DNA from: Tricholoma matsutake
Taxonomy: Eukaryota > Basidiomycota > Agaricomycetes > Agaricales > Tricholomataceae
Assembly (NCBI GenBank): GCA_026075535.2
Contig: AP026550.1
Location: forward strand, 1,612,001 to 1,676,000
Reading direction: 5' to 3'
DNA length: 64,000 nucleotides
The translations under genes and the position numbers were made by a program. Positions 29,884 to 59,182 of this stretch are shown piece by piece. Within the stretch, counting starts at the first letter, position 1; the number at the start of each line of letters is the position of its first letter. The notes beneath the pieces are model-generated. The model saw nothing but the letters and a program-made list of their open reading frames with translations. It was not told where the DNA came from and did not search any database.

Positions 29884-32556
29884 AACACAATGAACGGACA
29901 CGGGCTAAGAGATAGTAAAAGGAAAGAAGGCGACAGGAAAAGTTACAACGGAGCGGTCTTAAAAGGAATTTATGTGCCTCGTGTAAGCTACAGAAGGCAG
30001 GGTAGCGCCTACAAAAGGAACGAGGGGAACGATTCCGCGGCACCTAATATTATATTCCCCATGAAATTCAGATGCGATGGTTACCACATTGTCACCGGCT
30101 GCGTAATTCAATTGATACTCGTTGACAAGTCCTGGAACAAGCAGCTCCACGCTCTATGATTATAATGTGCAGACGCTCATGTATGCAGTACGGACCCCAG
30201 CTGTTCCTCAATGAGACCCCGCTATTCGTCCCGGCTTTACGTTTTCGCGCACGAGTTAGCTTGAACCTGACGAAAGTGGCGTTGGGCATTCTGAATCTGA
30301 TCAAAATTTGATGATTGAATGGAGCAGCTTGGCCTGACTCGTATCCTGAGCAGCAGGAGTCATAGGGAAGTCGATAAGCGCTAGCGGTGTATGAAAATTT
30401 GCAAGTCGTGATATGATACACCAGAGCTGTTAAATGTCAAAACTTGCTGGAGTTGCGCGCATGGAATCCCACATCAATACAAAATTACATATTTTGATAA
30501 GCTGGACAGGAGTATGTATACGAAATTGCCTCATGTCCGGAGCACATACTTGGCAACTTTCCCAACCCTGGTTCTGCGGGGGAAAGGACAGTTATCCATT
30601 TGTGCTCACCCGTAATCTGTATCCACGTGTGTCTTACTGAATCTTATCCCATTCAGATCCGATATACTTAGGAGTCAGTCTACAATGAAGTCTTCTAAGA
30701 GGATGGTTCAACAGACGTGTAAAGCTCGCCGTTTACATTCAAGAAACTTTCCTCCTATAACTTATTGGCTGAAGCCGCTGGCCATGTTCTAATTCAGGTG
30801 TAATTTATTAACCCTATTACGCACACTCTTGCCCGCTACTTTCTCCGGACCGGATGCACCGTAGTTGCAGAAAGCTGAACGAGGACAGTCGCGTTTATGT
30901 ACTACTCACTATTCGGACGACGCACGTTCTAGAGGTAGCAACAATAGATGTCCCTTCCTGGGTCATTAATATTGACAGCACAATGTTTGCTCTGTGCGGC
31001 GATTCAAGGCGAAAGTTTCGACTGTTAGTGTATCGACAGTCCGGCGCCAATCTCTGGATCGTTGCGCCGGCCACATGTACAGTCACGTCAAAACTTTTGT
31101 TTTCGGATCCGGGCTGCGGATGGCGAACCACCGTATACACAGCTATCTACAGCTATTCATAAGACGCCTCAAAGAGCGAACTCAGCGAACATATATTCAT
31201 TGTGGACACTGAGAGAGAAACAGACCCTCAAAATCTGTTGCGTTGTCTCATACTATGAACAGGAGCTCTTACCTCTTACATATTCTCTAATACAGCCCCG
31301 AAAAGTTATGTCATAAAACATTCTTCCCTTTCGAAAATTTCGTTCTAAAAACTGCCGAGCCCATTATTGACGCGCCGAGTCAAGGTTTGGTTTCCAGAGC
31401 ACTGTGAGCCTACCACACTCTAAACTTGCGTGCTGAGCTGTGCTGAGCGCTGATCGATGATCGACGGAACGTTTTGGGTCTATGTAGCGATCTTCGGCGC
31501 TTATAGTCGAACTGGATCGGATCCCAGCAGACCCCGGAACGGAGATTCTCGTAGTAATGACTCTGACAATATTCAAGTCAAGGTCCAGCGCGGTCCAGAC
31601 GGTGTAGGAGGGCATGGGACATACTTAAGAGGACATTAGCCACAAGCGTCTCGATGCCTGATAGTACTTAAGATGCCTTCGGACCTTTGTTCATCCAGAA
31701 ATATACTGTACGTAAGGATGGGGAATTGTTAGGAGTGTATCCCGATCTATGCGCTAATTATCTCAGCCGCAGGATCGAATATACTAACATTGTATGCTTC
31801 TCCTTCCACGAGATAAAAATTTAAACGACGCATAGACTTCTCGGAAAAGGAGCGGAAGGCCCTATAAAGCGGACATTTGCGCAAAAGATGTATTAGATTC
31901 GGTTGGACTCGTTGGGCCAGGGTCATGAACAAAGGGTACCCGTAACTCGGGCCAGCCGATAGGCCTGTCTCTACTTACATTCAATATCAGAAGCAAGTGT
32001 GGATCCGAATTCAATCCGAATTCGAAAGCTGTGAAAATGTGTGGTGACTTGAACTGAATCCAATCGTTCTCAGAGTGCCCAAGAACAGACAGGGGGAGTG
32101 AACTCAGTTTAAATGGTCCCGTTCAAGATTGGGCTACAACTTAGAACGACTATCTTCACTCATGCTAAGTACAAGCCGGGCTTGCAAGGCTAGTTGTAAC
32201 TATCACATGCAGATGGACGGCACTCGCCGTGATCATTGATCTAGGCCATGAGACTGGAATAAGTAATTTGGGTCTCAAATTATCACCAATTCATTTCCCC
32301 AACATTTCACACCCTCACCCTCTACTCTGGTTATCAATAAACTAGTGTATGTGGCAGAACTGGCAGAATGGCAATTGTCAGAATCTGGCAGAACTCCTGT
32401 GCCTCAAATTTTTGTTCTACACTATTGGCAGTACTATGCAGCTATACCAGGACCCTGGATGATGCATACTGAGGCTGGGTCTGAAAAAAGTCCAATTTTT
32501 GGGGTTTTTGTCTGGATTCAAGGGGTACTCATCACTAGAATTTGTAAGGGTATGTT
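29884..32556. other. 2.7-kb gene-free region
   Basis: No conserved coding sequence, repeat or RNA gene recognised on either strand. Open frames are short, unrelated to each other and lack family motifs. It separates the housekeeping block from the nested transposon cluster. Confidence 0.5.
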
Positions 32557-32591
32557 CAAGGGGGTTGCAGGATTAAAACTCTACATATCGG
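32557..32591 (+). repeat. Left terminal inverted repeat of the candidate transposon
   Basis: Starts CAAGGGGGTTGCAGGATT and ends at ACATATCGG. It pairs, with about 75 percent identity over roughly 38 bp and mostly transition differences, with the reverse complement of 48292-48327. Confidence 0.55.
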
Positions 32592-32795
32592 GTTGAAAAT
32601 TTTTTTAAGGACCTCGGGGAGGGAACTAACTAACAGTGGTGGGAAACAATTCCCAAATAAGGAAATTATATTTTGCCGTAATGTTGCCGCTGCCGTCGAT
32701 GTCTCTGATTGCTCCCACTTGCCTCACATGCCTCACAAGCCCAGCCGCTAATGCGGTACGCCAGTTCAACACATTGGAGGTGGTACTTTAGCATT

Positions 32796-34960
32796 TCAGT
32801 GGTATGTTTGTTCTCGAGGGACATTGCAACTCACCCATCTGGTCTCACATCCTGCAGATTCACATCTGGTGATGCCCTTGCCTGTTGAGATCTCTTCATC
32901 GGTCACAGCTTCACCACATGTGCATACCTCCAAGATCGCATGTAAGTCTCTCACTTTCCACTTCCTGCCTATATGTGTGATGGGACCGTCAAGTGTAAAT
33001 GGGTGGTTGTCTGTCCCTTTGTTGGTTGGTGCTAATATTGGCAGATTGTCAACTGGAACCTTGGGAGAAGCAGGAGTGGGTTCAATGAATGGGCTTTGGG
33101 GTGGTAGTGCTGGGGACCATGGCTCAGGTGAGTGCTGAATATGTTGGCTTGTGTTCCACTCGTCACTGAGCCTCTGTTCTGAGGGTTCATCTCCAGCCTG
33201 ATGTTCTGAATCAGTCTTGTCATCTCCTGGAGAATCACTTCCCCCCCATTCCAGATCAAGTGGATCTTCGAGGCCATCATCGTCATCGCTCAACTTGCCA
33301 TCTTTAGTGACATCCCTGGCCTCCCATGAGTGTTTAGCGGCAAAATTGATCAAAAACACTAACTGTAAGGTGAGGCATGAACTATGCACTTCTGAAATGA
33401 TTAGCAACACTGATTTTCTTTTTTTAGACTGGCGCGCCTTCTTCCTTTTGTGATGATCATCCCAGATCTCCTTTAGCAATCATTTTTCAGTGAACAAGAT
33501 TTTCCATATTTCCTCATGCAGAGTTAAGGAGATGGTGGGGTGTTTTGCTTGCATGTGGTATGGCAAGTTGTATTGCCATACGCAAGGTTTGGCTGCAGGA
33601 CATATGGGACACTGGAGCAGAACATTGGAGGATGGACTTGATGCTGTCGAGATGCTCACAGTTGCATATGAGAAGTTTACCTTTTTTATGCATGTAGACT
33701 TTGCAAAATCCACTTGATCACTCACACCAGCACCTTTCCCCTACTTGAGGTAAAATTTGCAGACATCCATGGGCCAGAGGCACAGTCCACAAGGCTCATC
33801 ACTTTGTTTGATGTGAGGGTCAAAGAGGATGTGTGCAGCCATGTGCTTGAGGACCCTGGGAGCTTGTTTTGGAAGAGCAATTGGAGGACTGCAGTTCATA
33901 CATTCATTCCCAATAGCTGGATTGTGGGTGGCATGTTCATTTTCACAGAGAAAACATGCTTTTCCTGTGAAATACATGAGACAAGAATGGTAGTAGATTG
34001 TGTAGATCACATTACCTGACTTCTCAGGGTAGGGAAACCTGTCTGATGATCTGATCTCCAGTAGTAGATGTCCATGTCCAGATTTGAGTCGCTTGAGAAT
34101 TGTTGCCCTGATAGCTATCAGGACACTACTTTCAAAGAGGTAGAATGGGTTTCCAGGCTCTTGTGTGGAAAGGTTTGGGTTGATCAGTTGGATAAGATGT
34201 CCAGACACTTAATGCAAGGAGCCCCATTTGCAAGACCACTGCCAATCGTGTTTGAGATCGGGGTCATCCTCAACATTTGTTGGAACAATATATAGCATCT
34301 GAAAAGACATGAATACTGTTGGCTCAGTAAGGTACTTGACAGCTATGTGGTCAGTATGCTGGTTGTCAAATGTAATGTCATTGACTTTACTGATGCACAA
34401 GAACACACACCCATTGCATCATACCAATGATGCAATTCCATCTGGACTTGGTTGTCGCCCGATGTTGGGTCACATTCAAGAATAGTGTGAATATTGGGTG
34501 ACTTGATGGAATAGCGTTGAATATTTGCCATGCGCTTCAACCGATCTGTTGATCCTGTCTTCTTGTATTGTTCAAATGCATGGTTTAGGTACTGGGCTTT
34601 GTAGACCTCTGTCCCACAAAGCTCAAAACATGGGTTGTATTTTCCATGGGGCATTTCTTCAGCAATGGCATCTTCCACATCTGGAGCAGGGGAGAGACCA
34701 GCCACTGGATATGTATCTGCTTCAATGCCTTCTAATGTATCATCATAATTGTCTGCATCATGAGGGTCCTTGATGAGATTCTTGCCAAGAGGGGAAAACA
34801 TGTTGAACAAATGCTCTGTTGTGGTGCGTAAGATACCTGTGAGGAAAGGAAAATCACAGGCAGCCAATCTTCCAGCAGGTTTGAAGGACAACCAGACACC
34901 TTCACATGATGCAGGATTTATGTGATCGACGTGTTTGTGGACAGTAGAACCATCTTGCAA
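32796..34960 (-). pseudogene. C-terminal part of the candidate transposase: C2H2 and PHD-like fingers
   Basis: Continues the core segment after HVDHINPASCEG. Near 33480-33725 the minus strand encodes a C2H2-like finger (CPICPAAKPCVWQYNLPYHM with a distal His, then a LHEEIWKILF helix). Further on (33479 to 32796) come a basic stretch, an acidic linker, a Pro-rich region and a cysteine-rich module (LEVCTCGEAVTDEEISTGKG, CESAGCETRW) that resembles a PHD-like treble clef. I know the same finger pair from C-termini of agaricomycete repetitive proteins. The segment is cut by stops and frame changes (for example near 33479 and 34208-34343), some of which may be introns. Probably a DNA- or chromatin-binding tail. 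Confidence 0.55.
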
Positions 34961-36788
34961 TAATGCAGGCAGTTTGAGCTGTCAGGGTGCTTTGTCCCAA
35001 TGAGGATACTTTGCAAGGATTGTTGAGACCTCTGTAGTTCCTGTAAGGCAAAGACTGAGCTGAAGAAGGTCAAGTTGCCAACCATGGTGTGAAGGATGCC
35101 ATACAAGACCTCAAGGCAGTCCATTCCTAGTAGAATTATCCAGAAGCTACCATCTGGATCATCCACCTTGGTCTTAGCAACACAGAAGTATATGTTCTTG
35201 ATCATGATCATGATGTCAACATACAATTGCATAGGCATCAATGCCATTGTGACTTTGTCTTCAGTAAAAAGTCCAAGTAGAAGGTGGCCCACTGCACTAA
35301 GATGTTCCAGCTGTTCTGAAAGTGAAAGGTCAATGCAGATGTATGGAATGAGGATATGACGAAACAGTGCTCCAAGGACTTGGAAACACTTTTGTGCTTG
35401 GTTAAACCCAGGCAATGCATCTGTGGGCAGATTTGGGAGGGACCATACATCTTGGAGCATGTTATATGCTAGCTTCACATCCTGATGATCATTGGGATTG
35501 AGCAGGTAATCAATTCGAGTTGATGTCAAGTTGTTTGAAGCCAAATGAGAATGGATCACAGAAGGCTTGATGTGAACTCCATGAACATGGAGACCTTTAT
35601 CCTGGAGCAACAAGTTCCAAAGCCATTTGAAAACATGTTTGTAGTCTTTGTCCGCAGTAACATCATCACCACCAACTTCCAGATTCATGAGTGGGAGGAC
35701 ATGCAACATGTCATAGATGGGGGAGGTGGCCACAAGTTGACATTTAAATGTTAAGTGTACCAGTGCTTTGCCATGCTGAGATTCACCATCAGATGCAATG
35801 CTAATGGTTCTAAGCCCCAATTTCTGGCTGGATACACACACATGCTGTGTTGATCAGAGCTGCATGTTGAAATCCCATCTCATGTTTGCAAGAACCTGAG
35901 ATCAAGATTGGCCTCACGCCATACAATTGTGTTTCACCACTTAAGACACCAAGTGTGCCAACAGTTGCCTAATTCAACTCATGAGAAATAGAAATCAAAT
36001 GCCAACCATCATTGATGCTTGATTGATGCATCATCACCCACCTCGACAGCAAGATGCACTTCACCTTTGTCGATGCTGCTTATCAAGAGCTCTACTTCCT
36101 TGTCAGAGTTGAACTCTAGGCTTGTCCTGTGCTCATGCTCACAGCAAGCACCCAAGATCTTGTTGGTCTTGTCATCGTGGCATAACCTCTCCTCAGTCTT
36201 GAGTTTGTCGAGCATCAGGATTTGGTGAACTACACAATGGCCTTGGAGGAGGTCATGTATGCTTTCAAAGTTGCTGTCAACATTCATTTCAACTTCGAGC
36301 CTGGTAGGTGAAAGTGAAGAGACCAAGAGCCGAGGGATTAGTGTGCGGTGGTGGAGGGTATCAAGTGATGGGAGATTAAAGGCACAGTGCACAATTCCCA
36401 CAACTTGAGCCCCGCCAAGTCTCCATAATAACAGCCCACACAAGTCATCCTCCTCAGTGTAGTTCCTTGGATGATACACTTGTCGAGCTGCATGATCATA
36501 CAGATCCAGAAGGTTCTGAATCCCACCCTTTCTTGCAAGGTTAACCCTGACTAGACAATCCACCTGCTCTACCTTCCCACTACCAACAGCCATAACCCAT
36601 CTTTTGAAGTCGTCTGCTACAGCCTTCCCTGCAAGTTTTTGGGCATTGTTGAGCCTCCTCAAGCACAATGCATGAACCTCTCCAGTCTTTCTCCTCACTA
36701 TCGTTATGAGACCTCCAACACTGTGGTACATCAAATGTGTGTTTTCATGTACACCTGTTTCAATTTGGTGATAGGTCCACCTGGTCAT
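34918..36788 (-). pseudogene. Core of a candidate P-element/THAP9-like transposase
   Basis: The open segments 36788-36009 and 35841-34918 plus the in-frame stretch between them encode the most conserved part. Three motifs recall the RNase H-like core of P-element/THAP9 transposases: ILMLDKLKTEERL with Asp at 36207-36209, ISIASDGESQHGKAL with Asp at 35788-35790, and LLGMDCLEVLYGIL with Glu at 35110-35112. After the second motif, DKDYKHVFKWLWNLL resembles the DxxHLIKxxRN stretch of that superfamily. The roughly 200 residues that follow, before the Glu motif, would occupy the place of the inserted GTP-binding domain. Catalytic roles are inference; no search was possible. In other copies I remember RxRNLL where this one reads WLWNLL, which fits decay. 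Confidence 0.6.
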
Positions 36789-38155
36789 TCAAGCTTGGAA
36801 AACACATCTACAATTGTTGTCAAAGCTCTACAAACCCATACAAACCCCTCCGAAGCCCTACGAACCTCTATGAACCTCTACAAAATCATGAGAATGCTTC
36901 AAAATTCTTGGCAACACTTCGAAGCTGTTGGCAACACCTTGAAATTCTTTGTATGTCTTCGGCCACCATAATACAATTCCCCCGACCTTTGTACAGCTCA
37001 GGATATACACTTGGAACATCATTGATGAGTTCCGAACCAGTCTCGAGCAATATTGCAGTGATATCGGCCTTCAAACAAGTCTGATATTTCCTTCAAAGAC
37101 TTTGAAAATCATTGAACATTGAAAATTGATATCGGACACTATATTGCTATCCAAATGGTCATCACACACATGCCAGACGTATCCCCTACCATTGTCAAAC
37201 AATATCGCACTGATGTCAGGCCACGAACGAAGTCCAAAGAAACTTTGAAAATCTTTGAAACACATTGAACCTCGAAAAACATCTTTGGACACAGTATTTC
37301 CTATTCGAATGATCTTTGGATGCATGCTGGACACATGGGACACTATCTCGAGTATATTGAACACATTTCGACTGCATGTGTATGCATACAATCCGCTCAA
37401 AGCAGTTTCCGATGTTTTATTCAATTTATAACAAGGACAGTCTGCTTTTAGCTATTCTTTCTTATTATTTCTTCATCATGTGTTATATTCACCCTTTCTA
37501 GTCTTGCTTTATTGTTCTGATATACTTCTATTGTCTTTTGCCTCAAGTTTTCCACATGTTTGCCTCATGTTCTCTAGCCTTTTTAGGTAGTTTCTTTATT
37601 TTATATAAAAAGATGTACTAGATACAAAGAAAAACAAGAAAGTTGTCATCTTCATCCCAGATCACAGTGATTTTAGAGTTCAGTTTAGTCTTATTCAGTC
37701 TGAAGTTTGGTGTTTTACACTAAACTTCCTCAAAATTCCTCAAAATTCCTTGAGATTCCTTGCATTACACTATTTTCGCTCTTGTTTTCCTCAATTCACC
37801 TTTGCTTTGCTTCTACTACTCATCTAGTCCCCTGATCTTGCGTCCAAACATATTTGTGCACTCAAAATTCCTTGAAACTTCTTTGAAAAAACCTTGAAAA
37901 ATATTGCAACACCTCGAAAAATATTGCAACATCTCAAAAATCATTGCAACTCCTTGAAAATCCTCAAAAGTCCTCAAAACACATTCTTTTAGCTTCGAAC
38001 TGCTTTGACAAGCAGTTGTTTTATGACTATTTGATGCTTGGTCTGACAGGTGACATCTAGAGGGCCTTGCATCCTTCCTCTGACTTGTGTTATACCATCC
38101 AAAGCCATTTAGTAGGTTTTGTTTGGGTTTCTGGGTTGAGCATCATCATTGGGTG
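36780..38155. other. About 1.4 kb of unidentified DNA separating two transposase segments
   Basis: The transposase frame stops resembling its family after NLQGVLH (minus strand, near 38150) and resumes at QIETGVHENTHLMYH (near 36770). The DNA between is AT-rich, has no coding potential and contains degenerate repeats of the type CCTTGAAAAATATTGCAACACCTCGAAAA near 36840-36960 and 37720-37980. It could be an inserted element such as a solo LTR. I could not find its exact ends. Confidence 0.5.
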
Positions 38156-38736
38156 GAGGACACCTTGCAGGTTTCCATTTTTAGTGAGTGCCTCACAATT
38201 TTTACAATGTCCAGAAGTGTGTTGGGCCTTTGATGTGCAACCCTTGGCATGTAGTACCATGACCCCACTAATAACGGAGTAATCCCGAGGGTCCCCCAGC
38301 TCATCATGGATGCCATATGGATACAATGAGTAGGTGCTCTTGCCTGGTGGAAGGTCAATTTGGATACCACAGCACATCTTTGATTTGGGATAGCTTTGTG
38401 GTGGTGGGGGGCATGGGGCATGGTCTTGGGCTTCAACATCTATTGGGGGATTGGACAGTGTGGTAATGTGTGCCATGTCAATGTCTTGGTTCTGTGGTTC
38501 AGTTGTGGGTGGTGGGGACCTGAAGCTAATTAGGCAAGGGCACTCTATTCCAATGTCGCTAACTACACTTCATCGATAGCCTGCTCAGCCATTCCAATTT
38601 ACCTTTGAATAAATAAACTGTGACTTGGTGATATGCAACAAGGTATTCCAGAAAATGGCAAAGTCCTATGAGACCTTTCTCTCCCACTTGGACTAGTTAT
38701 TGCAGCTCATTGGGGGGCTTCTGAAGCAAGCCATTC
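38156..38736 (-). pseudogene. N-terminal middle segment of the candidate transposase
   Basis: From the chromovirus target site, the minus strand reads GLLQKPPNELQ, a stop, then LVQVGEKGLIGLCHFLEYLV and, further on, the conserved LPPGKSTYSLYPYGIHDELG and CKNCEALTKNGNLQGVLH blocks. These match the N-terminal half of the same repetitive family. The TAA stop just after the insertion site shows the gene had decayed at least in this copy. Confidence 0.6.
38732..38736. repeat. Left target-site duplication CATTC of the chromovirus
   Basis: The same five bases follow the 3' LTR at 46212-46216. Confidence 0.9.
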
Positions 38737-39451
38737 TGTTACGATTTGTTATCTAGACCCACAAGACCAGGCACTTCATTTTTCCTTTCTGACATGACAC
38801 GACTCACTTCTGATGGAGACACCCCCTTGACCTGACTCCTGTTGATCGACATGCTGCACTGCAGTATTCCATGACGTTGGACTCCGTGACATCGGACTCC
38901 TTGACATCAGACCCTTGATATCAGATCTGTGACATCAGATGCCTCATGCTTGGCATGAGGGTTATTTGCTATTGTTCTTTGACATGCTGTGCCGCAGCAC
39001 TCTGTGACATTGGACGCCTCATGCTAGGCATGAGGCTTACCGTTCTATTGTTCCTTCTATATTTACTTGACAAGGATCTCGTACTCCGATTGGACAATAG
39101 ACATTCTCTGAACCATATATAAGCTACAGTAATACTGCCTGTATTCCTTAGCTTGACCTAATTCAAATAATGGTCTTAGACTCAACCAGAACACTCGACA
39201 GCTTAGGAAGCCCCTAGCTGTGATAACTCGAACTCAACAGTTGGAAAGCCTCCAACTGTGATACACAAACCGACGGTCTACTCAGAAAGCCTCTGAGTAC
39301 GGATAGCTGTGATGACTTGAGGAAGTACCCAAGTGAAGGCAGGAAGCCCGATACACTAGGAAAGTCTCCTAGTGCGATACGAGACAGTTGGAAAGCCTCC
39401 AACTGTAACATACAAAGCCAAGGCTGAGTTAAAGACCTATAGTCTTAACAA
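38737..39451 (+). repeat. 5' LTR of the chromovirus
   Basis: 715 bp, from TGTTACGATTTG to GTCTTAACA. It contains palindromes around GCATGAGG in the U3-like part, a TATATAAGC box near 39113, and a row of hairpins in its last 250 bp. It is 14 bp shorter than the 3' LTR because of one unit fewer in a TGACATCGGACTCC-type short tandem repeat. Confidence 0.95.
39199..39450 (+). repeat. Array of stem-loops with AAGCC-type loops in the LTR
   Basis: Successive perfect or nearly perfect hairpins with different stems and a nearly constant five-base loop: CAGCTtAGG/CCTAGCTG with AAGCC; ACAGTTGGA/TCCAACTGT (39237-39259) with AAGCC; TACTCAGA/TCTGAGTA (39279-39299) with AAGCC; ACTTGaGG/CCCAAGT (39315-39334) with AAGTA; CACTAGGA/TCCTAGTG (39354-39374) with AAGTC; ACAGTTGGA/TCCAACTGT (39384-39406) with AAGCC; and GTTAAaGAC/GTCTTAAC at the LTR end (39429-39450). 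The 3' LTR carries the same set at about 45959-46210. Confidence 0.85.
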
Positions 39452-39832
39452 AAGGTCAAGCTGATCTACGAAGTCCACCTACCTAGGTGCAGACACAACG
39501 TCTTTCAGACAAAGCCCAGACAGACCTCCAACCAGAGCATCATCATCAGGAAGAACCCCATGGTATAGATACCAGGGTTGACTAGTACAATACTCAGAAC
39601 CAGCACAGAAGTGGTTCTCAAAGAGAACCAGTGACAAAGAACCCTGATACCTCGACGAAGAGGACTTTAGATCCCTCAATACAGAAGAAACTCCAGAACG
39701 AGACCCATTCTCCTTATCCAACGACAATGCCAACATGTCCACTGAACCGACCACATCGACCAAGGAGATCAGGATACAAACCCCCTCCAACTTCACAGGG
39801 GACTGAACTAGACTGCAAAGTTCTTACAAGAA

Positions 39833-40540
39833 GTGAAACTCTATTTGAGAGTGAACCATGGAATCTATGACACCGACGAGAAGAAAATCATCTTTGCATT
39901 GTCCTTCATGAACGGAGGAACCGCTGTGCCCTGGGCACAGACATGGGCAGAAAGAGAGGACCTAGGGACTTGGTCAGCCTTTGAATCGGCGCTCAAGACA
40001 GCGTTCACGCCGATCGACGAAGCTGGCAGGGCCAGAACTGAGATGAAGACATTGAAGCAGGGACAGGACCTGGAGGACTACATTGTGCAGTTCCGAATCC
40101 TGTGAGAGAAGGCGGGAATCAATGACGACACCGCCCTCATTGAACTCTTTATGGATGGGTTGAACCCCAAGCTCCTCGAAAGAGTTTTCAACATGGAAAC
40201 GATCCCTACGACCTTGGAAGGAATGATCAACGCCGCCTCCAAGTATGATGGACAGTGGAGAAGAGCAAAGGCCATAGCAGGGAGGCTGCAGGAGACTTTT
40301 ATGAAGAAGCTCCCGGCCTCTAAGGCAAAGGAAACCCCACTTGAGATCAACCGCCTCTCCTACCAGGAGAGGATCAAACACATGAAGAAAGGGTTGTGCT
40401 TTGTGTGCCACCAGCCCAGACACAGAGCAACTGAACACAAGAAAGGGGAAACAAGGACCAAGGACCAGCCTTTCCCAAAGAACAAAGGCAAAGAAGCCTA
40501 CTCGAAGATCCGAGTGATCTTGAATGAACTCAATGGATAA
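39833..40540 (+). pseudogene. Chromovirus gag with one internal stop
   Basis: Encodes the capsid-like block (VNHGIYDTDEKKIIFALSFM, AVPWAQTWAERE, FESALKTAF, LKQGQDLEDYIVQF), then TGA at 40103-40105 (a CGA-to-TGA change would explain it), and the C-terminal part up to a TAA at 40538-40540. The nucleocapsid knuckle reads CFVCHQPRHRATEH, with His instead of the last Cys of the usual CCHC pattern. A true start upstream is likely but not evident. The frame differs from that of pol. Confidence 0.8.
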
Positions 40541-40602
40541 GAGAAAGCAACTGCTGTTGCTGCCATCAGAGATGAGGGTTTTTAAAGGGGTGGCCTGCCT
40601 CG

Positions 40603-43600
40603 ATGCCAGGTACCACCGAACTTTCCATCTGCTCTGTACTACTAGCCACTTTGAAAAATCAATCTATGCGTTTAGATGTCAAAGTGGTAGGGACAGGCAG
40701 AGGAAAAGCCATCGAAACTGAAGCCCTACTCGACTCTGGAGCAGGAGGGATATTCATGAGTCATGAATTTGCAGAGGATGGCGGATTCGAACTGTACCCC
40801 CTGGAGAAGGTGATCAAGGTCAAGAACGTGGACGGAACCCCAAACAAGAAAGGGGAGATTTCCCACTACGCCAAGGGACTCTTGATGATCAATGGAAGAA
40901 CTTTCCCAATGACCTTCCTCATTGCAGGACTGGGAAAGGAATCAGTCATCTTGGGCTTGCCATGGCTCAGGAGAATCAATCCAGTAATCAACTGGAGAAT
41001 TGGAACCTTCCAATTCAGGACGAATGACAAGACCCATCCTGAATTCTCACATGGAAGAGGAAGAACCCTTATCGGTAGGGTACAAACCAAGAAAACTGAC
41101 GATGAACACTTGTCATGGCGTCGGAAGGGAACCGAGCAGAAGAAGAACCCCTTAGACATGACAAAGGAAGAATGACAGGCATGGTGCCGAGGCATCATTG
41201 CTAGAGACCAAGAGAAGCTCGCCCTCAAGAAGAAAGCTGCTGAGGAAGAACAAGCACAGTGGAAAAGGCTGGCCACCAGAGAACTGGAGAAACTGGCCAC
41301 CAGAAAAGAAGAAGGACAACTGGCAGTAGCCCGAATAGTCACAAAAGAGAGGGAAAAAGCAGCCCTGAAAAGCAAGAAAGAAGAGCTGGCAAAAGAAGAA
41401 CACCAAGAGCTATGCTGAAGAGTTGTCGCCAAGGCAAAACTGATGGGAGGAGTCCTCCATGAAGAACCAAGAAGAAGCAAGATGCCCATCGAGACAAGGA
41501 AAGCGACAATCGAAGAAATTGATGATGAAGAGATTGCGATCACGACTCTTCAAGATGTGGAGCCTATTGGGCCACAAGATGAAGAAGAAACTGAGAAGGA
41601 AAACTCAGCACAGGCAAACCACAAACAGGCAACGGAACAGGCAATGGAACAGGCAACAGAACTACCGAAAGAGACGCCTGAACTAAGGATCGAAGATGAT
41701 GAGCTACTGGTCGCCTACATCCAAGGAGAACCCATCATTGGAATATTCAAACCAGCTAGGACACCGCTGACAGAGGAGTATGACGAGCCAAGATACGGAT
41801 ATTCTCTGATGACAAAGACAATCTCTCGGATCGTAAAGGCAAAAGGATCACCGCGATATGCTTATGGACAAAATATCTGGATTAGGGCAAAGACATCGGT
41901 CTCTCAACACCTGACACACAAGAAGGAAGGAGACCCTGAACAGAAGACCCTAGATGAACTACTCCCCGAACAGTACAAGGAGTACCAATGGATATTCGAA
42001 AAGGAAGCATCGGAACGATTCCCAGAATCAAGACCCTGGGATCACGTGATCAAACTGAAACTGGACTTTGTAGCAAAGGATTGCAGGGTTTACCCATTGT
42101 TGCTGGCAGAACAAAAGAAACTCGACGAGTTTCTTGATGAAAGCCTGCAGAAAGGATACATCCGACCATCGAAATCACCCATGGCGTTGCCATTCTTCTT
42201 CATTGCAAAGAAGGACTCGGACGCGCTACAACCCTGCCAAGATTACAGGTACTTGAATAATGGAACAATCAAGAACACCTACCCACTGCCACTGGTAGGA
42301 GACCTGTTGGACAAACTGAGAGGGGCAAAATGGTTTACGAAATTGGACATCCAATGGGGATATCACAATGTCAGAATCAAGGACAGAGATCAATGGAAAG
42401 CAGCCTTCAAGATGAACAGGGGGCTGTTTGAGCCAATGGTGATGTTCTTCGGATTATGCAACTCACTGGCAACCTTCTAGGCAATGATGAACAAGATATT
42501 CCATGACATGATCGGAGAAGGATGGCTCGTGATTTACATGGACGACATCCTGATATTCTCCAAGGATCAGAATGAACACCAGGAAAGGACAAAGAGAGTA
42601 CTGCAAAGGTTGGCAGAGAACGACCTATACCTGAAACCAGAGAAATGCAAGTTTGACATCCACAAAGTGGAATTCTTGGGTCTGATCATCTGACCCAACA
42701 AATTGCCATGGACAACACGAAACTGGCAGGTATACAGGATTGGCCAACCCTGACAGACGTAAAGGCAGTCAGATCTTTCCTGGGATTTGGAAACTTCTAC
42801 AGGAAGTTTATTGGACATTTCGCGGAGACAAGCAGACCACTTAATGAGCTGACGAAGAAGGACAAAATGTTCAACTGGACAACCAAATGTGAACAGGCCT
42901 TTCAGACGCTGAAAAGGAAATTCGCAGAAGCACTGGTACTGCTGATGCCAGACCCAACAAAGCCATTCACAATCGAATCAGACGCCTCAAAACACGCAAC
43001 AGGAGGAGTGCTGAGACAAAGGGATACGAATGGAGACTGGCATCTGTGCGGATACATATCACATGCACTGACACCAACGGAACGGAACTACGAGATATAT
43101 GACAGGGAACTTCTGGCGATAGTACAATCACTGGAAACTTGGAGACACTACTTGCTGGGTTCAGAACACCCGGTAGTAATCCTCTCGGATCACAAGAACC
43201 TAACGTACTTCCAGACGGCACAGAAACTGAACAGATGACAGGCAAGATGGAGCTTATTCCTATCAGAATTCGACTTGCAACTTGTCCATGTACCAGGATC
43301 TCAGATGGTACAGAGCGATGCGCTATCACAGAGAGCGGACCATATACCAGAAGAAGACAATGATAATGAAGATGTCACAATGCTGCCAGAAACAGTATTT
43401 GTGAAATTCATTGACACAGAAATGCATGATCTACTTGCAGATAGTATCATGAAAGACAATCTGGTAAAAAGCACAATCGAGGCACTAAAGACAAAAGGAA
43501 TGCCGCCGATCAAGTCGGCATTGGAAGATTGGAAAATAGAAGATGGCCTTCTATTCTTCCGAGACAGATGCTATGTCCTGGACAATGGAGATCTATGGAA

Positions 43601-44852
43601 GAAGCTGGTGCAAAAGTACCATGAAGGAGTAACCAGTGGACACCCAGGACAATAGCAGACTACCGAAATGATCAGGAGGGACTACTGGTGGCCAGGAATG
43701 ATGACATACATCAAGAACTATGTCGCTGGATGTGCCACATGCCAGCAAATGAAGGTCAATACCCACCCGATGACACCCCCACTGCAACTGATCAAATCCA
43801 AAGCAATGAGACCATTTGTGATGGTGACAACAGATTTTATAACCGACTTCCCAGAGTCCGACAGTTATGATGCACTCATGGTCGTGGTAGACCATGGGCT
43901 TGCAAAGGGGGTAATTTTTATCCCTTGCAGGAAAACAATAGATGCATTGGGAGTGGCCACCCTCTACCTAGACAATGTCTACAAACAATTCGGCCTCCCA
44001 GACAAGATCATCTCCGACAGAGATCCCAGATTTGCCTCGCAGCTGTTCCAGGAGCTAGGGAGACTGCTCAGAATCAAGCTGGCAATGAGCACAGTGTACC
44101 ACCCCCAGACCGACGGGGAGACAGAATGGGTGAACCAGGAAGTGGAAATATACTTACGGATCTTCTGCTCGAACAACCAGGAGAACTGGAAGCACCTCCT
44201 CCTGACTGCGGAGTTCACACACAACCAGAGGATGCACTCTGTACAGAAGAACTCCCCATTCTACCTCATGATGGGCTATGAGCCCAAGGTGATCCCACTC
44301 CCCTACCTGAAGACGAACATACCAGCCATAGAAAAATGAATAGTTGCACTGCAATGGGCCCGAGATGAAGCGAAGGAAACTCACGAGTTGGCCAGACAAA
44401 TGATGGCGGAAAGAACGACAAGGCACTTCACCCCATTCAAAGAAGGAGACAGAGTGTGGCTAGAAGCGAAGAACCTCAGAACGATGCACCAAACAAAGAA
44501 GCTCGCACCAAAAAGAGAAGGACCATTCTCTATCGAGGAGGTCCTGAGCCCACTCTCCTACCGACTGAAGTTGCCAGAACAATGGAAGATACACCCGGTG
44601 TTCCACGTGGCACTCCTTTCCCCATATAAAGAAACCAAGACACATGGACCGAACTTCCCAGAACTGCCGCCCGATCTGATAGAAGGCGAATCGGAATATG
44701 AAGTGGAAGCGATCATCGGACATAAGAAGAAAGGAAGGACCATGCACTTCTTAGTGAAGTGGGTTGGATACCTGACCTCAGAGAACTCATGGGAGCCCAA
44801 GGGAAACCTGAAACATGCCAAGACAATCCTAGGGGCATATAAACAGCGATGA
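40603..44852 (+). pseudogene. Chromovirus pol: protease, RT, RNase H, integrase, chromodomain
   Basis: Protease with LLDSGAGGIF and VILGLPWL (about 40730-40980); a Lys/Glu-rich spacer; RT with RPSKSPMALPFFFIAKKD, WFTKLDIQWGYHNVRI and the intact YMDDILIFSKD box (about 42170-42690); RNase H with [15 protein letters not shown] and [19 protein letters not shown]; integrase with YWWPGM, the zinc-binding CATC motif, TTDFITDFP and STVYHPQTDGETEWVNQ; and a chromodomain (FLVKWVGYLTSENSWEP, about 44700-44840). Stops at 41173, 41416, 42478, 42691, 43236, 43653 and 44337 can each come from a single C-to-T or G-to-A change, most of them CGA to TGA. A one-base deletion near 42700 shifts the frame. The key RT aspartates are intact. 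Confidence 0.92.
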
Positions 44853-45071
44853 CAGCTGTAGAACCCCCAAGACCGAAAACACCCACCGAACCGAAGAAAC
44901 CACAGGATGCTCCCCCCTCCATCGACACTACACCTACCACAAACCCCAGCAAGGACTGGGTGAACAGTCATTGACCAACAACCACTGATGAACATACTCC
45001 CAGGCAGACCCTCATAGGTATGCCCGCATGGGATTCCCTTCTGGATACCAAGGGACGACTGGATAAGAAGG

Positions 45072-45386
45072 ATGTCCTCAACCTGTCCCAAATGCTGCCT
45101 CTTTGCCTGGAGGAGCACAAAGGCGGACTACACCTGGGTGAGGACCCAATATGAAGAGTGGTGTTTTGAGGAAGAGCGAGATGGGGAAGACTACATCTCA
45201 GAGGACTTCTGCGTCGACTGGACAGGGCTTCGCCCTGGTATGAGGCCACTGGTGGGTGTGAGCAGACCCCTATGGATCGACCTGCAGTGGAATACCCACT
45301 ATGATGACGAGAGCGGATATAGCCTGGCGAAGAGGCTCCTGCTCAGAGAACACGGAGAGTTGGGAACACTGCTGCACTCCAACTGA
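45072..45386 (+). CDS. Small accessory ORF between the chromodomain and the 3' LTR
   Basis: An uninterrupted 104-residue frame, although pol next to it holds seven stops. It starts MSSTCPKCCLFAWRS, is rich in Glu, Asp and Trp (WVRTQYEEWCFEEERDGEDY) and ends GELGTLLHSN. I recognise no family. It is set 220 bp downstream of pol and before the purine tract, the place where some Ty3/gypsy lineages carry extra genes. It could also be chance openness in a purine-rich strand. Confidence 0.4.
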   Translation: MSSTCPKCCLFAWRSTKADYTWVRTQYEEWCFEEERDGEDYISEDFCVDWTGLRPGMRPLVGVSRPLWIDLQWNTHYDDESGYSLAKRLLLREHGELGTLLHSN

Positions 45387-45470
45387 TTCCCTCAAACCCC
45401 ACGACCCCACCCCACCTCCTGACTAGGGAGGAGAAAGAGATTTTGATCGAAGTCAGTGACTTTGAAGATA

Positions 45471-45482
45471 GAGAGAGGGTGA
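45471..45482 (+). other. Polypurine tract of the chromovirus
   Basis: GAGAGAGGGTGA lies directly before the TGTTAC start of the 3' LTR and is preceded by further purine-rich sequence, as expected for plus-strand priming. Confidence 0.75.
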
Positions 45483-46211
45483 TGTTACAATTTGTTATCT
45501 AGACCCACAAGACCGGGCACTTCATTTTTCCTTTCTGACACGACACAACTCACTTCTGATGGAGACACCCCCTTGACCTGACTCCTGTTGATTGACATGC
45601 TGCACCACAGTATTCTGTGATGTCAGACTCCATGACATCAGACTCCATGATGTCAGACTCCTTGACATCGGACCCTTGATATCGGATCCGTGACATCGGA
45701 TGCCTCATGCTTGGCATGAGGGTTATTTGCTATTGTTCTTCGACATGCTGCACCGCAGCACTCCGTGACATTGGACGCCTCATGCTAGGCATGAGGCTTA
45801 CCGTTCTATTGTTCCTTCTATATTTACTTGACAAGGATCTCGTACTCCGATTGGACAATAGACATTCTCTGAACCGTATATAAGCTACAGTAATACTGCC
45901 TGTATTCCTTAGCTTGACCTAATTCAAATAATGGTCTTAGACTCAACCAGAACACTCGACAGCTTAGGAAGCCCCTAGCTGTGATAACTCGAACTCGACA
46001 GTTGGAAAGCCTCCAACTGTGATACACAAACCGACGGTCTACTCAGAAAGCCTCTGAGTATGGATAGCCATAATGACTTGAGGAAGTACCCAAGTGAAGG
46101 CAGGAAGCCCAATACACTAGGAAAGTCTCCTAGTGCGATACGAGACAGTTGGAAAGCCTCCAACTGTAACATACAAAGCCAAGGCTGAGTTAAAGACCTA
46201 TAGTCTTAACA
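45483..46211 (+). repeat. 3' LTR of the chromovirus
   Basis: 729 bp, TGTTACAATTTG to GTCTTAACA, followed by the CATTC target duplication at 46212-46216. It carries the same hairpin row as the 5' LTR. Confidence 0.95.
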
Positions 46212-47590
46212 CATTCAGTGGTCCATCAAATTGATCCCATGCATCTTCATTCTCACCAATGCACCCCACAGGGTCTCCAGCAAATGCAGCAAGTGGATGG
46301 TTCTCATTGGCTTCAGTGATGTTGCAAGGAAGTGCCTCAATATGGGCATGAAACTTTTGCAGGAGTGCCATTCCAATGGGGCATCCAGATGGTGGAGGTA
46401 TTACAGGTGTAGAAGTGGAAGTGGTCTTGCCAGTGAGGCTGACACCTGTGGATGCTATTGTGGGGTTGATGAGGGGGGAATGGACAGGAAGTGGGGCAGT
46501 TACAGTTGGTGGCACAGCTGGAGCTAGGGGTCAAAACCACCTCATTGCATTCTGCTTGTTCTTCTCAATGGTTTCTTTGGCTTTTTGCTTCTTTTTGTTG
46601 GCCCTGCATTGGGCAGATCCCTGATGTCATTGGATAAAGTTCTGTACCCCACCATTCCCTGTTTTTATTAGTGTTTAAAGGTCCCATTCAGTCCAGTTTT
46701 TCACCCCATTTGGATGAACCACAACCGCAACTGGTTGCCTGTTATGGCAAGACCCCAAAAAACCAGACTGAATGGCAAAAAACTGGTCCTTTGAACTGCA
46801 GTTCAGTTGTAACCAGTTTGAACTGACTAAAACTGGTCTTCTCATAGAATTTAATACATAAAACCAGTTGTAAACTATAGTATAGAGTGTATAGTAGTTG
46901 ACCATAAAGGTTTTATGGTGATGACATGTTGGAATTTTCCTCAAGCAGAGGCCTCACCAGGAAGCTGCAGACGACCAACTCTAGCAGAGCCTGTTTGTAT
47001 AAGTGCTCGAAGAGCACAACTACTACGATACACAAGCTTTATATACTAATCAGTAAATAATAAACAATATCTATGATACACATCAAGTGAAACTGTAGCA
47101 TAGATACATAGTAACCCATAAATAGAATGTAACATGTAACAAGAAAATATTACTGTGACTGCAGGCAACTGAGGGCTGAGCTCAAAATCTCAACATGACA
47201 ATCCTCTACATCTCAAAAAACACAACTACAAGATGTCATGCAGGTTAGATTTTGCAGTAACATATGGTTTTAGCCATAGCACATGCAATTCTGGACCATT
47301 TCTCTTGACAATATGGTCAAAAGATGTGTATTTATGAGGAGTACACAGTAGTGGTTCAAACTGACTCGAACCAGTTTTTATTAGTTTGATTCGGAGCAGT
47401 TCTTCCATCCTAGGAGGCCTGAACTGCAACTGATGGTCTGGTTTTTTGCAGTTCAGTCCGGTTCAGTTGCAGTCTTTTTCCGATTCGATGAACCAAACCT
47501 TTAAACACTAGTTTTTATGCAAGTTTTGCATTCAGGACACATCACACAACCATCATCTCCAATGATAAGCGCCTTCCCTGGATTGAGCAT
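46212..47590 (-). pseudogene. N-terminal zinc finger and linker of the candidate transposase, split by a hAT-type element
   Basis: The minus strand opens at ATG 47588-47590 with MLNPGKALIIGDDGCVMCPE and the cysteine pair of a finger (CPECKTCIKT), breaks at the hAT-type insertion, and resumes at 46660 with GNGGVQNFIQ and the rest of the finger (HQGSAQCRANKKKQKAKET). A Pro/Thr-rich linker follows, then HPLAAFAGDPVGCIGENED and AWDQFDGPLN up to the chromovirus target site. A stop separates NFIQ from HQGS where a Trp (TGG to TGA) is plausible. The finger is probably the DNA-binding domain that recognises the element ends. Confidence 0.55.
46669..47510. mobile_element. Non-autonomous hAT-type element, 842 bp, TSD GTTTTTAT
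   Basis: Terminal inverted repeats TAGTGTTTAAAGG at both ends and a perfect 8-bp target duplication GTTTTTAT (46661-46668 and 47511-47518), the hallmarks of hAT elements. The interior has many CCAGTTT/AACTGG and GCAGTTCAG motifs in both orientations within the terminal 150-200 bp (subterminal repeats) and no transposase coding capacity. It is inserted in the zinc-finger exon of the candidate P-like transposase. Confidence 0.9.
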
Positions 47591-48291
47591 CCCAATCTAT
47601 TTCAGTTGCATTGTCACACACCTCCATATCACATCCCTGGTGCACCCCCTCCACTCTTCTGGTGCTTCTTTTCCAAAAAGGAAGCTGTCGCGAGATCAAA
47701 TCACAGCCCTGTGGCACTTGATCACATGACATCCAAAAAAAAATTATCGAGTTTAAAGCAAGTTTACACAAGTCCAATGGCAAAGGGTCTGGACACGTCG
47801 TCACTACGATGCTTGCACCACATGCACATCCTTTTGTCTCTTCTACCCTGCATGTGGAGAGATGTTCACGCTGAACTACTGCACCACGTGCATCTCAAGT
47901 CCCGCCGGACTTTTCATGCACACGTCATGTGCCACAACCCCTATTCCTAGGAAGAGGACAAGTTTCAGAGACATTGCCTGTCTCAGGTTCTCTCTGCTAC
48001 TCTCTCTCTCTCCTAGGTAAGGGTTTTTCCTTTAGCATTGTGTCTCTCTGATGTAGCTCACTTTCTCTCAGCGACATCTCCTAGTTTCACTCAGTGTATT
48101 ATTTTTGTGTTCCCACCACTCCCACCACTAGTAACTGGAGGGTGTACCTCGAGGCCCCAAATAAAATTGGACCCTTCTGGCTGACCCAAAGGGTCGCCGA
48201 AAGAGTCGTTTTACCTATTCTTCTTACTCCCGTCCGTGAGAATCTCAGTCCGTCACACCCTTGCACATTGGACTAGGGACTAACTAACCGT
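47591..48291. other. 5' region of the candidate transposase gene
   Basis: Upstream of the possible start codon and inside the right inverted repeat. A CT-rich microsatellite lies near 47995-48015. No further coding block recognised, although upstream exons cannot be excluded. Confidence 0.35.
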
Positions 48292-48327
48292 CCTGATATG
48301 GTAAATTCAAACTCCGCAACCCCCTTG
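48292..48327 (-). repeat. Right terminal inverted repeat of the candidate transposon
   Basis: On the minus strand it starts CAAGGGGGTTGCGGAGTTTG and contains CCATATCAGG, mirroring 32557-32591. Confidence 0.55.
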
Positions 48328-49002
48328 GGTTTGTATATCAAGGGTACATTTTGTGCAAGATATGTTCCAGGCCGATGCATGGGAGATCCAACCTTCCCCA
48401 TCCACCTGCGAGATGTACAGTTCCTGCATAATGAAGAATATTATTTATTCTTCAACACGCTCATTTGATTCGTGCACTCCTGGCCATGGCATGTCACCCA
48501 ACCACATCATACCTTGCCAGATCAGACATTCATTCAGTCCAGGCTGTTGCATCTACACTTTCATCTTATTCAAGAACAAATTTTCTTCCTTGACCCTTTC
48601 AACAATCGCTCAATACACTCACAGATGGCCATACCACCCAGCCACACCATACTGTGCATGTTCAGTCTGGTCCACACTGTTGGGTTGAATGTTTCTGTAC
48701 ACTTTCATTTCACATTCCTTAATCTTTATCTTTATCTTTCATTTCTTAAATGGTTGTCACCAGCCAGTAGCTTTTCCCATAAGGTTTTTGATGCACCCAC
48801 AACTGAGCATTTCTTATCTGCCTTATTTCATACTACCTACCTTATTTTTACTTATATGTTTGTCATCTGAAGAGGCACCCATAATATTGGTCTGTCGAGG
48901 CACGTCCTTAGCTCTAGTCAGCATAGGCAGATATCAAGCAAGTAACAAGTAACAAGGGTATCTCTATCTCTCTATGTTCCCGCGATTGAAACTTGAAAAC
49001 GA
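48328..49002. other. Intergenic region between the transposon cluster and the MFS gene
   Basis: Pyrimidine-rich DNA with open frames lacking any family motif. No feature supported. Confidence 0.4.
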
Positions 49003-50888
49003 TCAACTAGCTTTCTCAGCGGACTTTTCATCCTCATGCTCGGATTTTTCGCCTACCACAACACTCTCCAAACTTTTCTCTATATCTGATGCGGTGGGGA
49101 GTGGCGCCATATTAGTTTCAGCCTTCTTCCTCGCCTCTACCACGGACTTCCGCGCCTCCAGCCCACCTTCGTACCCGAACCAGGTGTACCTCTGGCAATG
49201 CGGCCCTCTGAGCAGGAGCATGACAAACAAGAAGGCGTAGAAGCCCATGCCAAGAGCAGCATCTGCGCGCCAGCCGTATCTAACGAAGATATGAGTACCA
49301 ACAGGTGTCCCGATCGATTGTCCGATAAAATTCTGATTGACAAATATCAGATCCTTGCCATGGCTAACGAAAAAGATGATGCCTTACGGAAAGAATTAAG
49401 ACGGCATTTAATCGTGAACGTGCAGGCGGGTGGATACTACAGATTAGATGATCAAAAACCGCAACGAATCCCAAACTGTGAACTATGGCTCACCCGAAAA
49501 CAGCGGTAGTAAGGGAAACCTGGAGCGTTTGACGGAAAATATCCAAGCCCAACGTGGAGATAATAACAGCGGCGACGCTGATACCACCTGCACCAGTCTG
49601 AATACTCTGAAAAAGTGCCAGCATAGTTGCACCGAACAGTGCTGCATACCATGGGACCAGCTTGTCAATGATACGCCCTCCCAGTGGGCCCAATGAAACC
49701 CCAAACATGCCAATTAAACCAAATAACCCAATCACCAATCTACCAGAAATTAGCAATCGGTGACGACATAGTACAAGGAAACAAAGGTTAATCTTACGTG
49801 GAATAATTATACGGCGGGCCACCAAGGAGGAACGTAAGCGTAACCCAGAAATTGCTGAATTGCGCGCTGGCCGCCATAAGGACAAGACTCGATTGGATCA
49901 GCAGAGGCTCGGTGCATGCAAACTTCCCCATTGACCACAAAATATGGAAATAGGTAAGGTCATCGTTCTTTGACGGGTAATCTGGCAAAATTAGGTAGCT
50001 CCCTATTAGGACCACAGTCTGCATCCCGATCGCCGTGTAGTATACTACGCGCCAGGAGATAAACTGGGCAATCACGCCAGCGAGCACACGGGCGATGAGC
50101 ACCCCGAAAAGGAGCCCGGAGAGGACGATAGAGATGGCGGAGGCGCGACGCTCTGGCGGGGCGAGGTCTGCGGCGAGGGGGATGAGGACTTGCGGAGTGA
50201 CACTCGCGACACCGACGATGAAAGAGAGGGTTTCGAAGGCAACTAGGTTGCTTGTAACTGACAATCCGATCGTTATGCAAGTGGAAAGTGTCACGAGACA
50301 GAGGATCAACTTGCGCCGCCGTACTAGATCGCCAAGTGGTGAGAGTAGGAGGAGACCCGTAGCGTACCTGTGACTGTCATCTTGAGCAAGCCCATAAAGC
50401 ATGATACCAATCAGTATGTCACTCACCCTGCTTGAACTAGAGTAGGTATTCTAAAAACACGTCGGTGACTATCGGAGAGTTGAGTGAAAGCAGAAATACC
50501 TCGCAACCTCACTATATGATACATGGAACGAGTTCGAAAGCTCGACTGTAAACAGTGAGGTTGGTCGTTTCGCAGTCCACGGTATTCAAGAAAAGTGCTT
50601 ACTCAATAGAGGTTGGCAATAGTACAAGTTGGCTACGACTGCATTATTTATGATCAAAAATTTATCTGGACTCTTCAAAACATGGGGAGACTCACTAAAA
50701 GTACTCCCCAGCCCAAATGAGATGTTCAGAAGGACCCCAAACTGGAATGGCCTCTCAGGATTATAGCGAAGCCGACGTGGGATTGGAAGGAAACCAAAAT
50801 CTTTCGCTTTCGTAAATTGGGCCTCTTCTTCTGGTGAGGGCACCTCGCCTCCAGCAAGAACGGAAGATGGAGATTTTGACAATGGCAT
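49003..50888 (-). CDS. Major facilitator superfamily transporter
   Basis: Plasma-membrane or organelle secondary transporter; substrate unknown. The N-terminal cytosolic part is MPLSKSPSSVLAGGEVPSPE. Membrane segments follow across exons: YATGLLLLSPLGDLVRRRKL (the loop 2-3 motif of the superfamily), LILCLVTLSTCITIGLSV, TLSFIVGVASVTPQVLIPLA, ASAISIVLSGLLFGVLIARV, and after a cytosolic loop (YPSKNDDLTYFHILWSM) the second half with LVIGLFGLIGMFGVSLGPLG and LGMGFYAFLFVMLLLRG. The C-terminus is a charged, probably cytosolic tail (GEKSEHEDEKSAEKAS). About eight introns. The layout recalls bacterial-type sugar or drug exporters rather than fungal sugar permeases. The start at 50888 precedes an acidic leader with no earlier in-frame exon in sight. 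Confidence 0.85.
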
Positions 50889-53035
50889 GTAAGGGCGCAG
50901 TGTAGCCTGCTAGATCGGACGACTTCCTGCTAGCGTGAACGACGTCTGTCCACGGACCCATGCTGGCTGATCATTCGGCTATAAAAATGATAATTGGTAA
51001 TAACCGAAATAAGCAGAAATAAGCATTCAAGGTGGGTGGGAGTCATGTGACCATGTCAATTAGGCGGGTGCTTCGAATTCTGGGGTAAAGGCGTATCACC
51101 GTATTTATGAATCATCTAGCGTCATAGCACTATGAGATTATGCTCTGTTCTGCGACAGCGTGGTCAGCTTTGAAGTTTAAGAAAAACCTTCTGTTGGGCG
51201 AGAGATATGGAACTTGTATGGAACTTGCGTTTCTCCGATGCCGAGACCAAGCCGAGACGGTGCACGCCACGGAGCTCCGAATTGATATCTTTAGCTCGCG
51301 CCAGGCTTGAGTGACTCCCTGCCTAGGCCAATGATTTGCTCTCGACTTATTTTTTATAGTATAGGATGTGTACGATTGAATTAATATTGACTGACTGCTA
51401 GTTCTAGAATCTAACCACAGATATGATTCATCGGAATATCCAGATAGGCGAAAAGGTTGCTCGACATTCAGACTACAGCAATGTCCAGTTAGCCACATTT
51501 TGGATTCTATAGGTAACATACTCGTTTCAGGGATAGTTTTGGCACAGACATGTGTACAAGTACCATAACAAGTTAGCTCCTCACGCAAATTCTACATACG
51601 TCTTCCCAACCATGGGTGCGGGTCAAACAATTTGATGAAATATGATGCTACGACAGAGCAAGCGGGAAACCTGAACCGAGGATGGACAAGTGTTGTGTAA
51701 ATGTAATAGGGTACATGGACATCGGATTTTCTTGATGTAGACGTTCATTTAACTTTTCCCGTAGTTTCTTTGTCTGCTGGACACACGGTGCGACCTTCGT
51801 TAAAAAAATTAGGCTCTCCGAGTCATGAAGTCGAACTAGAGCAGTGGAACTGCAAAGGGATGGGAAGGGTAACCGACTGTGGAAGCACTGTTGGCAGGAC
51901 AGCAGCAGGCAGTAGAGTCGTTTTATGTCATCGTATCTACATTAATTTAGACCGAAAATATAGTGGGGTTACTACCATAAATCCAGTGGATGATGCCTAG
52001 TGATTCTATCAAATTTCCCAGCAATAACTGGGACAAAATATGACATGGAGTGACTTAGGGAGGCATAATCGACTCGAATATCGCGAGTCATTCCGCGTCG
52101 CTGACAGCTGTGTGCCGAGCGACTTTTCACCAGGGCTGAGGGCTGAGGGCTGAGGTTTCACATTGACTGAGCTCAAGAAGGCTGGTATCAGGAGGAAAAT
52201 AGCTCGAGACATTGGTGTAGTTGTGAATCATAGGAGAAACTTGAGCATCGAAAAGAATCATCAATTCGGCTGATCAAGAAGATAACGAAACCAAGACATG
52301 TTCATGATACAAGAGCCCCACAGACTAGATAATAGTAGAAAATAAATAAAAATATTGTATAGTGTAGATGAAGAGAGGGGAGGGACTTGACGCGATAGAA
52401 ATGCGCGAGTCAAAAGACAACTCACAGAAGCTATTTTTGGACGGCTCGGCTGCTGAGAGAGCCGCAAGCGGGCCGAGCGGAGCCTTGGCATGCAGAAGCA
52501 TGCAGAATGACATTTTTCACAGAGCTCCGATAGACTTCAACGGATGAGAACGTGACTAGGTTCCTATGGACACATGCTGAAGTTCGAAAGGGTCTTTGTT
52601 TCCTGTGTGCGTGATCGGTAGCATTGCTAGCAATCATTGCAAACTCTTTGTGGTAACTCAATGTCCATAAATTGTTGAGGAACACAAAAGAAATATAGTA
52701 ATAGTAAATTGCTTAGAGGTCCTGAGGAAAATACTCTACTAGTACATATGAGAACTGCATTCAGTTCCTGCGTGTCCAACAGGTACACATGTTGAACTTC
52801 CCTCCGACAGTGTCATTTGCGGATGCCCGGGCTGCCGAAGTCCGTGATTTGATGATAAGAATGTCATCCCTAGGCCTCTAGCTCATCCTTGAACTCGATG
52901 TGAATCGCACGATGCTATGTGAAACTTATTTGCCAATCAGGTTATCAGTATTTAAAGTCAAGTTCTTATCTCTCAAATTCCCGTCGGACTTCCTTCAAGC
53001 TCCTTTTCTTTCCTCCTCGTTTCATTGCCACTATT
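50889..53035. other. 2.1-kb intergenic region
   Basis: No conserved coding sequence recognised. A minus-strand frame at 51130-51588 has no family motif. A small direct repeat (GGGCTGAGGGCTGAGGGCTGAGG) lies at about 52133-52156. Confidence 0.45.
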
Positions 53036-59035: not shown

Positions 59036-59182
59036 TGATAGAAAGGGAAATTAGTAATAAAATAAGGAAAAATCATAGAAAATGAAGAATAGAAGGAAAT
59101 AAAGTGAGGAAAAATATAGGACAAATGTAAAAAATAGAAGAAACACAGGGTGCCCCCCCGAGTCCCCCCTAGTCCCCTTACA
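59036..59182. repeat. 147-bp direct repeat, left copy; probable LTR of the minus-strand gypsy element
   Basis: Runs from TGATAGAAAGGG to CCCCTTACA and matches 63854-64000 with a few substitutions and small indels. TG and CA ends and the position on both sides of a gypsy interior suggest LTRs, though it abuts truncated integrase sequence with no purine tract. Confidence 0.6.

Follow-up and report, generated by a model that had tools for sequence, protein, structure and literature searches.

A divergent P-superfamily transposon lineage predicted from a degenerate element of Tricholoma matsutake and its Agaricomycete relatives

What kind of gene lies on the minus strand in the middle of a 64,000-nt stretch of the Tricholoma matsutake genome (GCA_026075535.2, contig AP026550.1, positions 1,612,001-1,676,000 of the forward strand; hereafter the window, in which all positions are counted)? 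An earlier note had read three acidic motifs at 34918..36788 as the RNase H core of a P-element/THAP9-like transposase belonging to a repetitive family of anonymous proteins. We find that the gene is predicted, with high confidence, to encode the transposase of a cut-and-paste DNA transposon of the P superfamily, and that the P-like elements here are a divergent Agaricomycete lineage of that superfamily. Searches with two family members as queries returned 260 and 155 proteins, 233 of them distinct among those listed. None of these 233 carries a precomputed Pfam domain, and in the databases they are called 'hypothetical', 'uncharacterized' or 'predicted', the most specific name being 'zinc finger PHD-type'. 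Many entries are nameless; the named source organisms are all, we presume, Agaricomycetes.

The three acidic residues are found at the codons and in the contexts that the note described, on the minus strand: GAC (Asp, 36207-36209), GAT (Asp, 35788-35790) and GAG (Glu, 35110-35112). These codons are split between two open frames: in alignment, the one at 36009-36788 (259 aa) is 56% identical to a part of the family protein P0091, and the one at 34918-35853 (311 aa) is 61% identical to the part that follows. The single protein proposed for the region holds in that both frames belong to one family protein, but 34918-36788 contains 16 stops when read straight through. Conservation of the acidic positions, on which the note had staked its reading, was assessed in an alignment of 110 relatives. 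Of the sequences covered at each position, 101/102 retain the first Asp, 105/106 the second and 108/109 the Glu; being near-invariant, the three motifs are beyond chance. The string D445xxH448, followed by K451, R454 and N455, is also highly conserved in the 110 sequences and aligns with D339xxH342 of the fly P transposase; [C/D](2)H after the second Asp is part of the signature string of the P superfamily (PMC8230255, in part).

A profile built from 52 listed family proteins was compared with a profile of 36 P-type transposases, a set gathered with a fly sequence checked against P0234. The two profiles match with E = 4.5e-15 over 363 columns, and each residue of the catalytic triad and of the DxxHxxKxxRN string is paired with its counterpart; controls (8 column shuffles and 1 reversal) all gave E 0.17 or worse. 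Fold prediction gives an RNase H-like structure, and among solved structures Drosophila P transposase matches it best. In the model, a mostly helical segment (residues 446-603) lies between a strand (441-444) and the Glu helix (617-630), within the range aligned with the fly structure 6p5a. Profile comparison and fold prediction, both proposed in the earlier note, support the kind of protein that its author had read from motifs alone.

Matches to the predicted model extend to RAG1, Transib and Hermes, RAG1/Transib being the next-best structural families. Such matches would be expected as well if the gene belonged to another superfamily making 8-bp duplications, such as hAT or Kyakuja/Dileera/Zisupton, and resembled P transposases only through the common RNase H fold. 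hAT elements also make 8-bp duplications. Furthermore, Kyakuja and Zisupton elements have been reported in Agaricomycetes (PMC12730594, in part). A scan of 44 members at E <= 0.1 listed six families, and the hAT dimerisation domain PF05699 is not one of them. We regard membership of such a group as very improbable.

Does the gene reside in a mobile element? We compared the window copy (W) with four sister copies (A to D) from the 161-Mb genome and obtained sharp ends, with 64.8 to 95.3% nucleotide identity across matching parts. From its terminal inverted repeats (TIRs) at both ends and its homology with sister copies, the whole degenerate element, nested insertions included, occupies 32557..48327 on the minus strand. 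Its 5' TIR at 48316..48327, CAAGGGGGTTGC in the transposase sense, is the exact inverse of the 3' end over 12 bp, and comparison of element ends places the 3' TIR, GCAACCCCCTTG, at 32557..32568. Copies B, C and D end in CAAGGGGGTGTCA and its inverse, and copy A has the 5' end and an altered 3' end. The termini start with CA and end with TG, as do the TIRs of the Drosophila P element. Flanking inverted repeats had been claimed in the note and are present, but far outside 34918..36788, in an element of 15.8 kb, not 1.9 kb. The 13-mer CAAGGGGGTGTCA occurs 295 times in the genome (7 times for the reversed control). Copies W, B, C and D, and several of the short ones, carry by eye a subterminal ACCATATNNGGNNGGTTAGTTAGTCC-like stretch near their 5' ends, which we take as no more than a candidate binding site.

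Flanking sequences were compared at 24 end pairs: 18 from 39 loci scanned for a close second end (30 from the first matches listed, and 9 picked from 100 listed for having two ends facing), 2 long pairs, and copies B, C, D and W. Copy A was left out because its 3' end is altered. The 8-bp flanks are identical in 11 of the 24 pairs, agree at 7/8 positions in 4 and at 6/8 in 3, so that 18/24 reach at least 6/8. Mean agreement at length 8 is 0.786 versus 0.248 in mismatched pairs, and ranges from 0.236 to 0.325 at lengths 2 to 7 and 9 to 12. Since the agreement peaks only at length 8 among lengths 2 to 12, exactly 8 bp are duplicated. Copy C has 7/8 matching positions. For W, the upstream flank TACAAACC (48328..48335, minus strand) is identical to the downstream flank AACATACC (32549..32556, minus strand) at 6/8 positions, probably representing a decayed target site duplication.

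Exact duplications flank only short elements: the 11 pairs span 828 to 1448 bp, which leaves no room for this transposase. Compared with copy B by blastn, 10 of 16 short elements share terminal sequence and 6 show no match at E <= 1e-4. The latter (L035, L041, L051, L052, L064 and L068) carry the same 13-bp 5' end and exact 8-bp duplications, and may belong to other families that the same transposase, or a related one, moves. The same six elements also suit the idea that elements with these TIRs are moved by another transposase and that the gene is a passenger. We find this hardly credible: the catalytic signature is kept across the family, four open frames of at least 220 aa in copies A and B resemble parts of the transposase gene (by eye), and the duplication length of P elements is 8 bp (PMC7776569, in part).

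The family is repetitive, as the note had it, with 103 gene matches in the genome at 70 to 73 places depending on merging distance. At least one in-frame stop is present in 72 of the 103 matches. Among the stops in 51 matches to P0122, TGA accounts for 133 of 173, with 25 TAG and 15 TAA. The observed/expected CpG ratio is 0.24 for the window element and 0.49 for a gypsy retrotransposon nested in it, compared with 0.94 for window positions 1-32000 and 0.67 for 49000-64000. The TGA-rich stops and CpG loss are consistent with methylated CpG having decayed by deamination. A host gene family that was domesticated from a transposase and is now immobile could likewise be anonymous and multi-copy, with extra finger domains and a C-terminal part of no known role, but this least probable of the alternatives is already contradicted as a general account for the T. 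matsutake genome by the TIRs at both ends of B, C, D and W, the exact 8-bp duplications on short copies with the same ends, the stops in 72/103 matches and the CpG depletion of the window copy relative to positions 1-32000.

Several results weigh against the assignment to the P superfamily. Sequence searches with one protein or with the 110-member profile retrieved no solved P structure. The Pfam models PF21787 and PF21788 had no match in the genome, although the same searches were silent in control genomes too; PF21788, the guanosine triphosphate (GTP) domain, was found in none of the 44 members at E <= 0.1. The THAP domain (PF05485) was likewise absent from the 44 members at that threshold and from 5 nearly full-length members (4 of them among the 44) at E <= 5. 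The position equivalent to K400, one of the fly GTP contacts, is Asp in 50/51 sequences (posterior 0.998). Finally, flanks match at no more than 3/8 positions in 6 of the 24 pairs, including the transposase-bearing copies B and D. The PF21787 scores listed lie below the 24.6-bit cut-off, and the failure of the curated Pfam P models is a detection limit of the models, not a biological feature. THAP is also unlisted at E <= 0.001 for P0346, which passes four other P models, and THAP domains are described as confined to animals (PMC7776569, in part). The poor flanks of B and D may result from recombination or decay.

What stands in place of the THAP domain and the GTP pocket? Among 45 relatives of at least 1400 aa, 31 show a CxxC...H...C pattern within the first 150 residues, which is degraded in the window copy. 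Reported fly GTP contacts are D528, K385, K400, V401, S409, F443, D444 and N447 (PMC7776569, in part); in the family alignment D528 and V401 are kept, and the five others besides K400 have an aligned position with a posterior no higher than 0.41, or none. The C-terminal half contains a well-predicted beta domain and Cys/His clusters, with weak structural matches. Some database names call the last Cys cluster 'PHD-type', and the Pfam PHD model reaches E = 2 in 1 of the 5 nearly full-length proteins only. In the window, the C-terminal Cys-rich end lies at ~32800-32950. Of the fingers that the note placed at both ends, the N-terminal one is seen as the CxxC...H...C pattern and the C-terminal one as a Cys-rich end whose strict pattern fits only 2/45 relatives. 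One speculative and rather unlikely scenario is that a C2HC finger replaced THAP, that the GTP pocket was lost or rebuilt so that transposition would proceed without GTP in the fly manner, and that a C-terminal chromatin-reading module (Tudor-like beta domain and PHD-like Cys cluster) would steer integration or silencing.

For the P-type transposase itself, we propose that the N-terminal C2HC finger and a helix-turn-helix (HTH) would recognise terminal and subterminal sequences, that a long helix (residues 106-152 of P0171) may dimerise the protein, and that the RNase H core would cut the element out and join it to the target at sites 8 bp apart.

The window copy itself is laid out on the minus strand, with the domains between 34918 and 36770 transferred from the predicted model of P0171. 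The N-terminal region with the degraded C2HC finger (46213..46689) was located by tblastn of P0125 residues 18-167, also by P0124 and P0132, and by translation; the next N-terminal segment, starting CGIQIDLPPGKSTYSLYPYGIHDELGDP (38147..38735), comes from family protein alignments. Alignments and the model place the coiled-coil/HTH region and first RNase H strands, including the first catalytic Asp, at 36039..36770, and the second catalytic Asp, DxxH motif, helical insertion domain and catalytic Glu at 34918..35853. These are followed by a post-catalytic region (34343..34981; 40% identity with P0091 over 195 columns), a beta-rich and first zinc-binding C-terminal segment (33741..34208; 45% identity with P0094), a C2H2-like segment of the C-terminal region (33480..33740; 49% identity with P0094), and an acidic linker with the Cys-rich end (32796..33479). 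The latter rests on translation and tblastn, matches extending to ~32814 for P0122 and ~32802 for P0132, with a weak one for P0074 (E = 0.003).

Two insertions interrupt this copy. The gypsy long terminal repeat (LTR) retrotransposon (38737..46211, plus strand) has LTRs at 38737-39450 and 45483-46211 that are 94% identical, and a 5-bp duplication, GAATG, read by eye from alignment output. The second, of ~1.4 kb, interrupts the gene at approximately 36771..38146 according to breaks in protein and DNA alignments (36765-38153 by DNA alignment). This insert contains many TTTTGAGGA-like words, and 139 bp of it are 94% identical to L059. Without both, the element measures ~6.9 kb. From the sequence and the alignment gap, the break at ~35969-36041 looks like a GT-AG intron. 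The remaining breaks between gene pieces are frame changes and the window copy is therefore a pseudogene; with two interruptions, frameshifts and CpG depletion, it is dead. Elsewhere in the window, an open frame at 9723-11255 (plus strand) resembles, by eye, a tyrosine recombinase/Crypton-type integrase, and a fragment at 59051-59830 (minus strand) an LTR retrotransposon integrase region.

How new is this lineage? The earlier note had called it undescribed. In the literature searched, the sole fungal P-element report that we found concerns rusts and, as far as its accessible text goes, describes P-1_PSt and autonomous and non-autonomous Melampsora elements with 8-bp duplications as 'previously unknown in any Dikarya' (PMC3164196). 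The superfamily is therefore not new to fungi. We found no report of Agaricomycete P elements in that literature, with Repbase, Dfam and most subscription papers outside its reach and an earlier entry possible. Given the rust elements in print and no Agaricomycete report found, we file the family as a divergent lineage of the P superfamily and not as a new superfamily. A large protein family of mushroom-forming fungi, to which the databases assign no function, can now be read as transposases whose active site is predicted and whose element ends are defined, and annotators can use it to classify repeats in Agaricomycete genomes. The P superfamily is widened beyond THAP-bearing elements, and the family sequences can serve to ask when GTP dependence and THAP domains were gained.

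Compared with known systems, the family has in common with Drosophila P transposase (6p5a, 6pe2) the HTH, the split RNase H core with a helical insertion domain before the Glu, the D/D/E triad, the DxxHxxKxxRN string and the 8-bp duplications; the family model and the fly protein share 15-16% identity in the structure alignment. The two differ at the N-terminus, where a C2HC-type pattern is found in the family and no THAP domain, and at fly K400, replaced by Asp. They also differ in size: the fly protein has 751 aa and TIRs of 31 bp, whereas the family has TIRs of 12-13 bp and proteins that run from 1403 to 1896 aa in the 45 members listed and include a long C-terminal region rich in beta structure and Cys. 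The triad of human THAP9 (D304, D374, E613; PMC8230255, in part) is the same; the P core proposed in the note is supported, but since no THAP domain was found the fungal family is not THAP9-like in the strict sense. With RAG1/Transib it has in common an RNase H core with a helical insertion domain. The rust P elements (Repbase P-1_PSt, P-1_MLP and P-2_MLP) are alike, by their published description, in superfamily, in their Basidiomycota hosts and in 8-bp duplications (PMC3164196, in part). Zebrafish P-like elements resemble the family in the length of their TIRs (13 bp) and of their duplications (8 bp) and in having copies with internal deletions (PMC7776569, in part).
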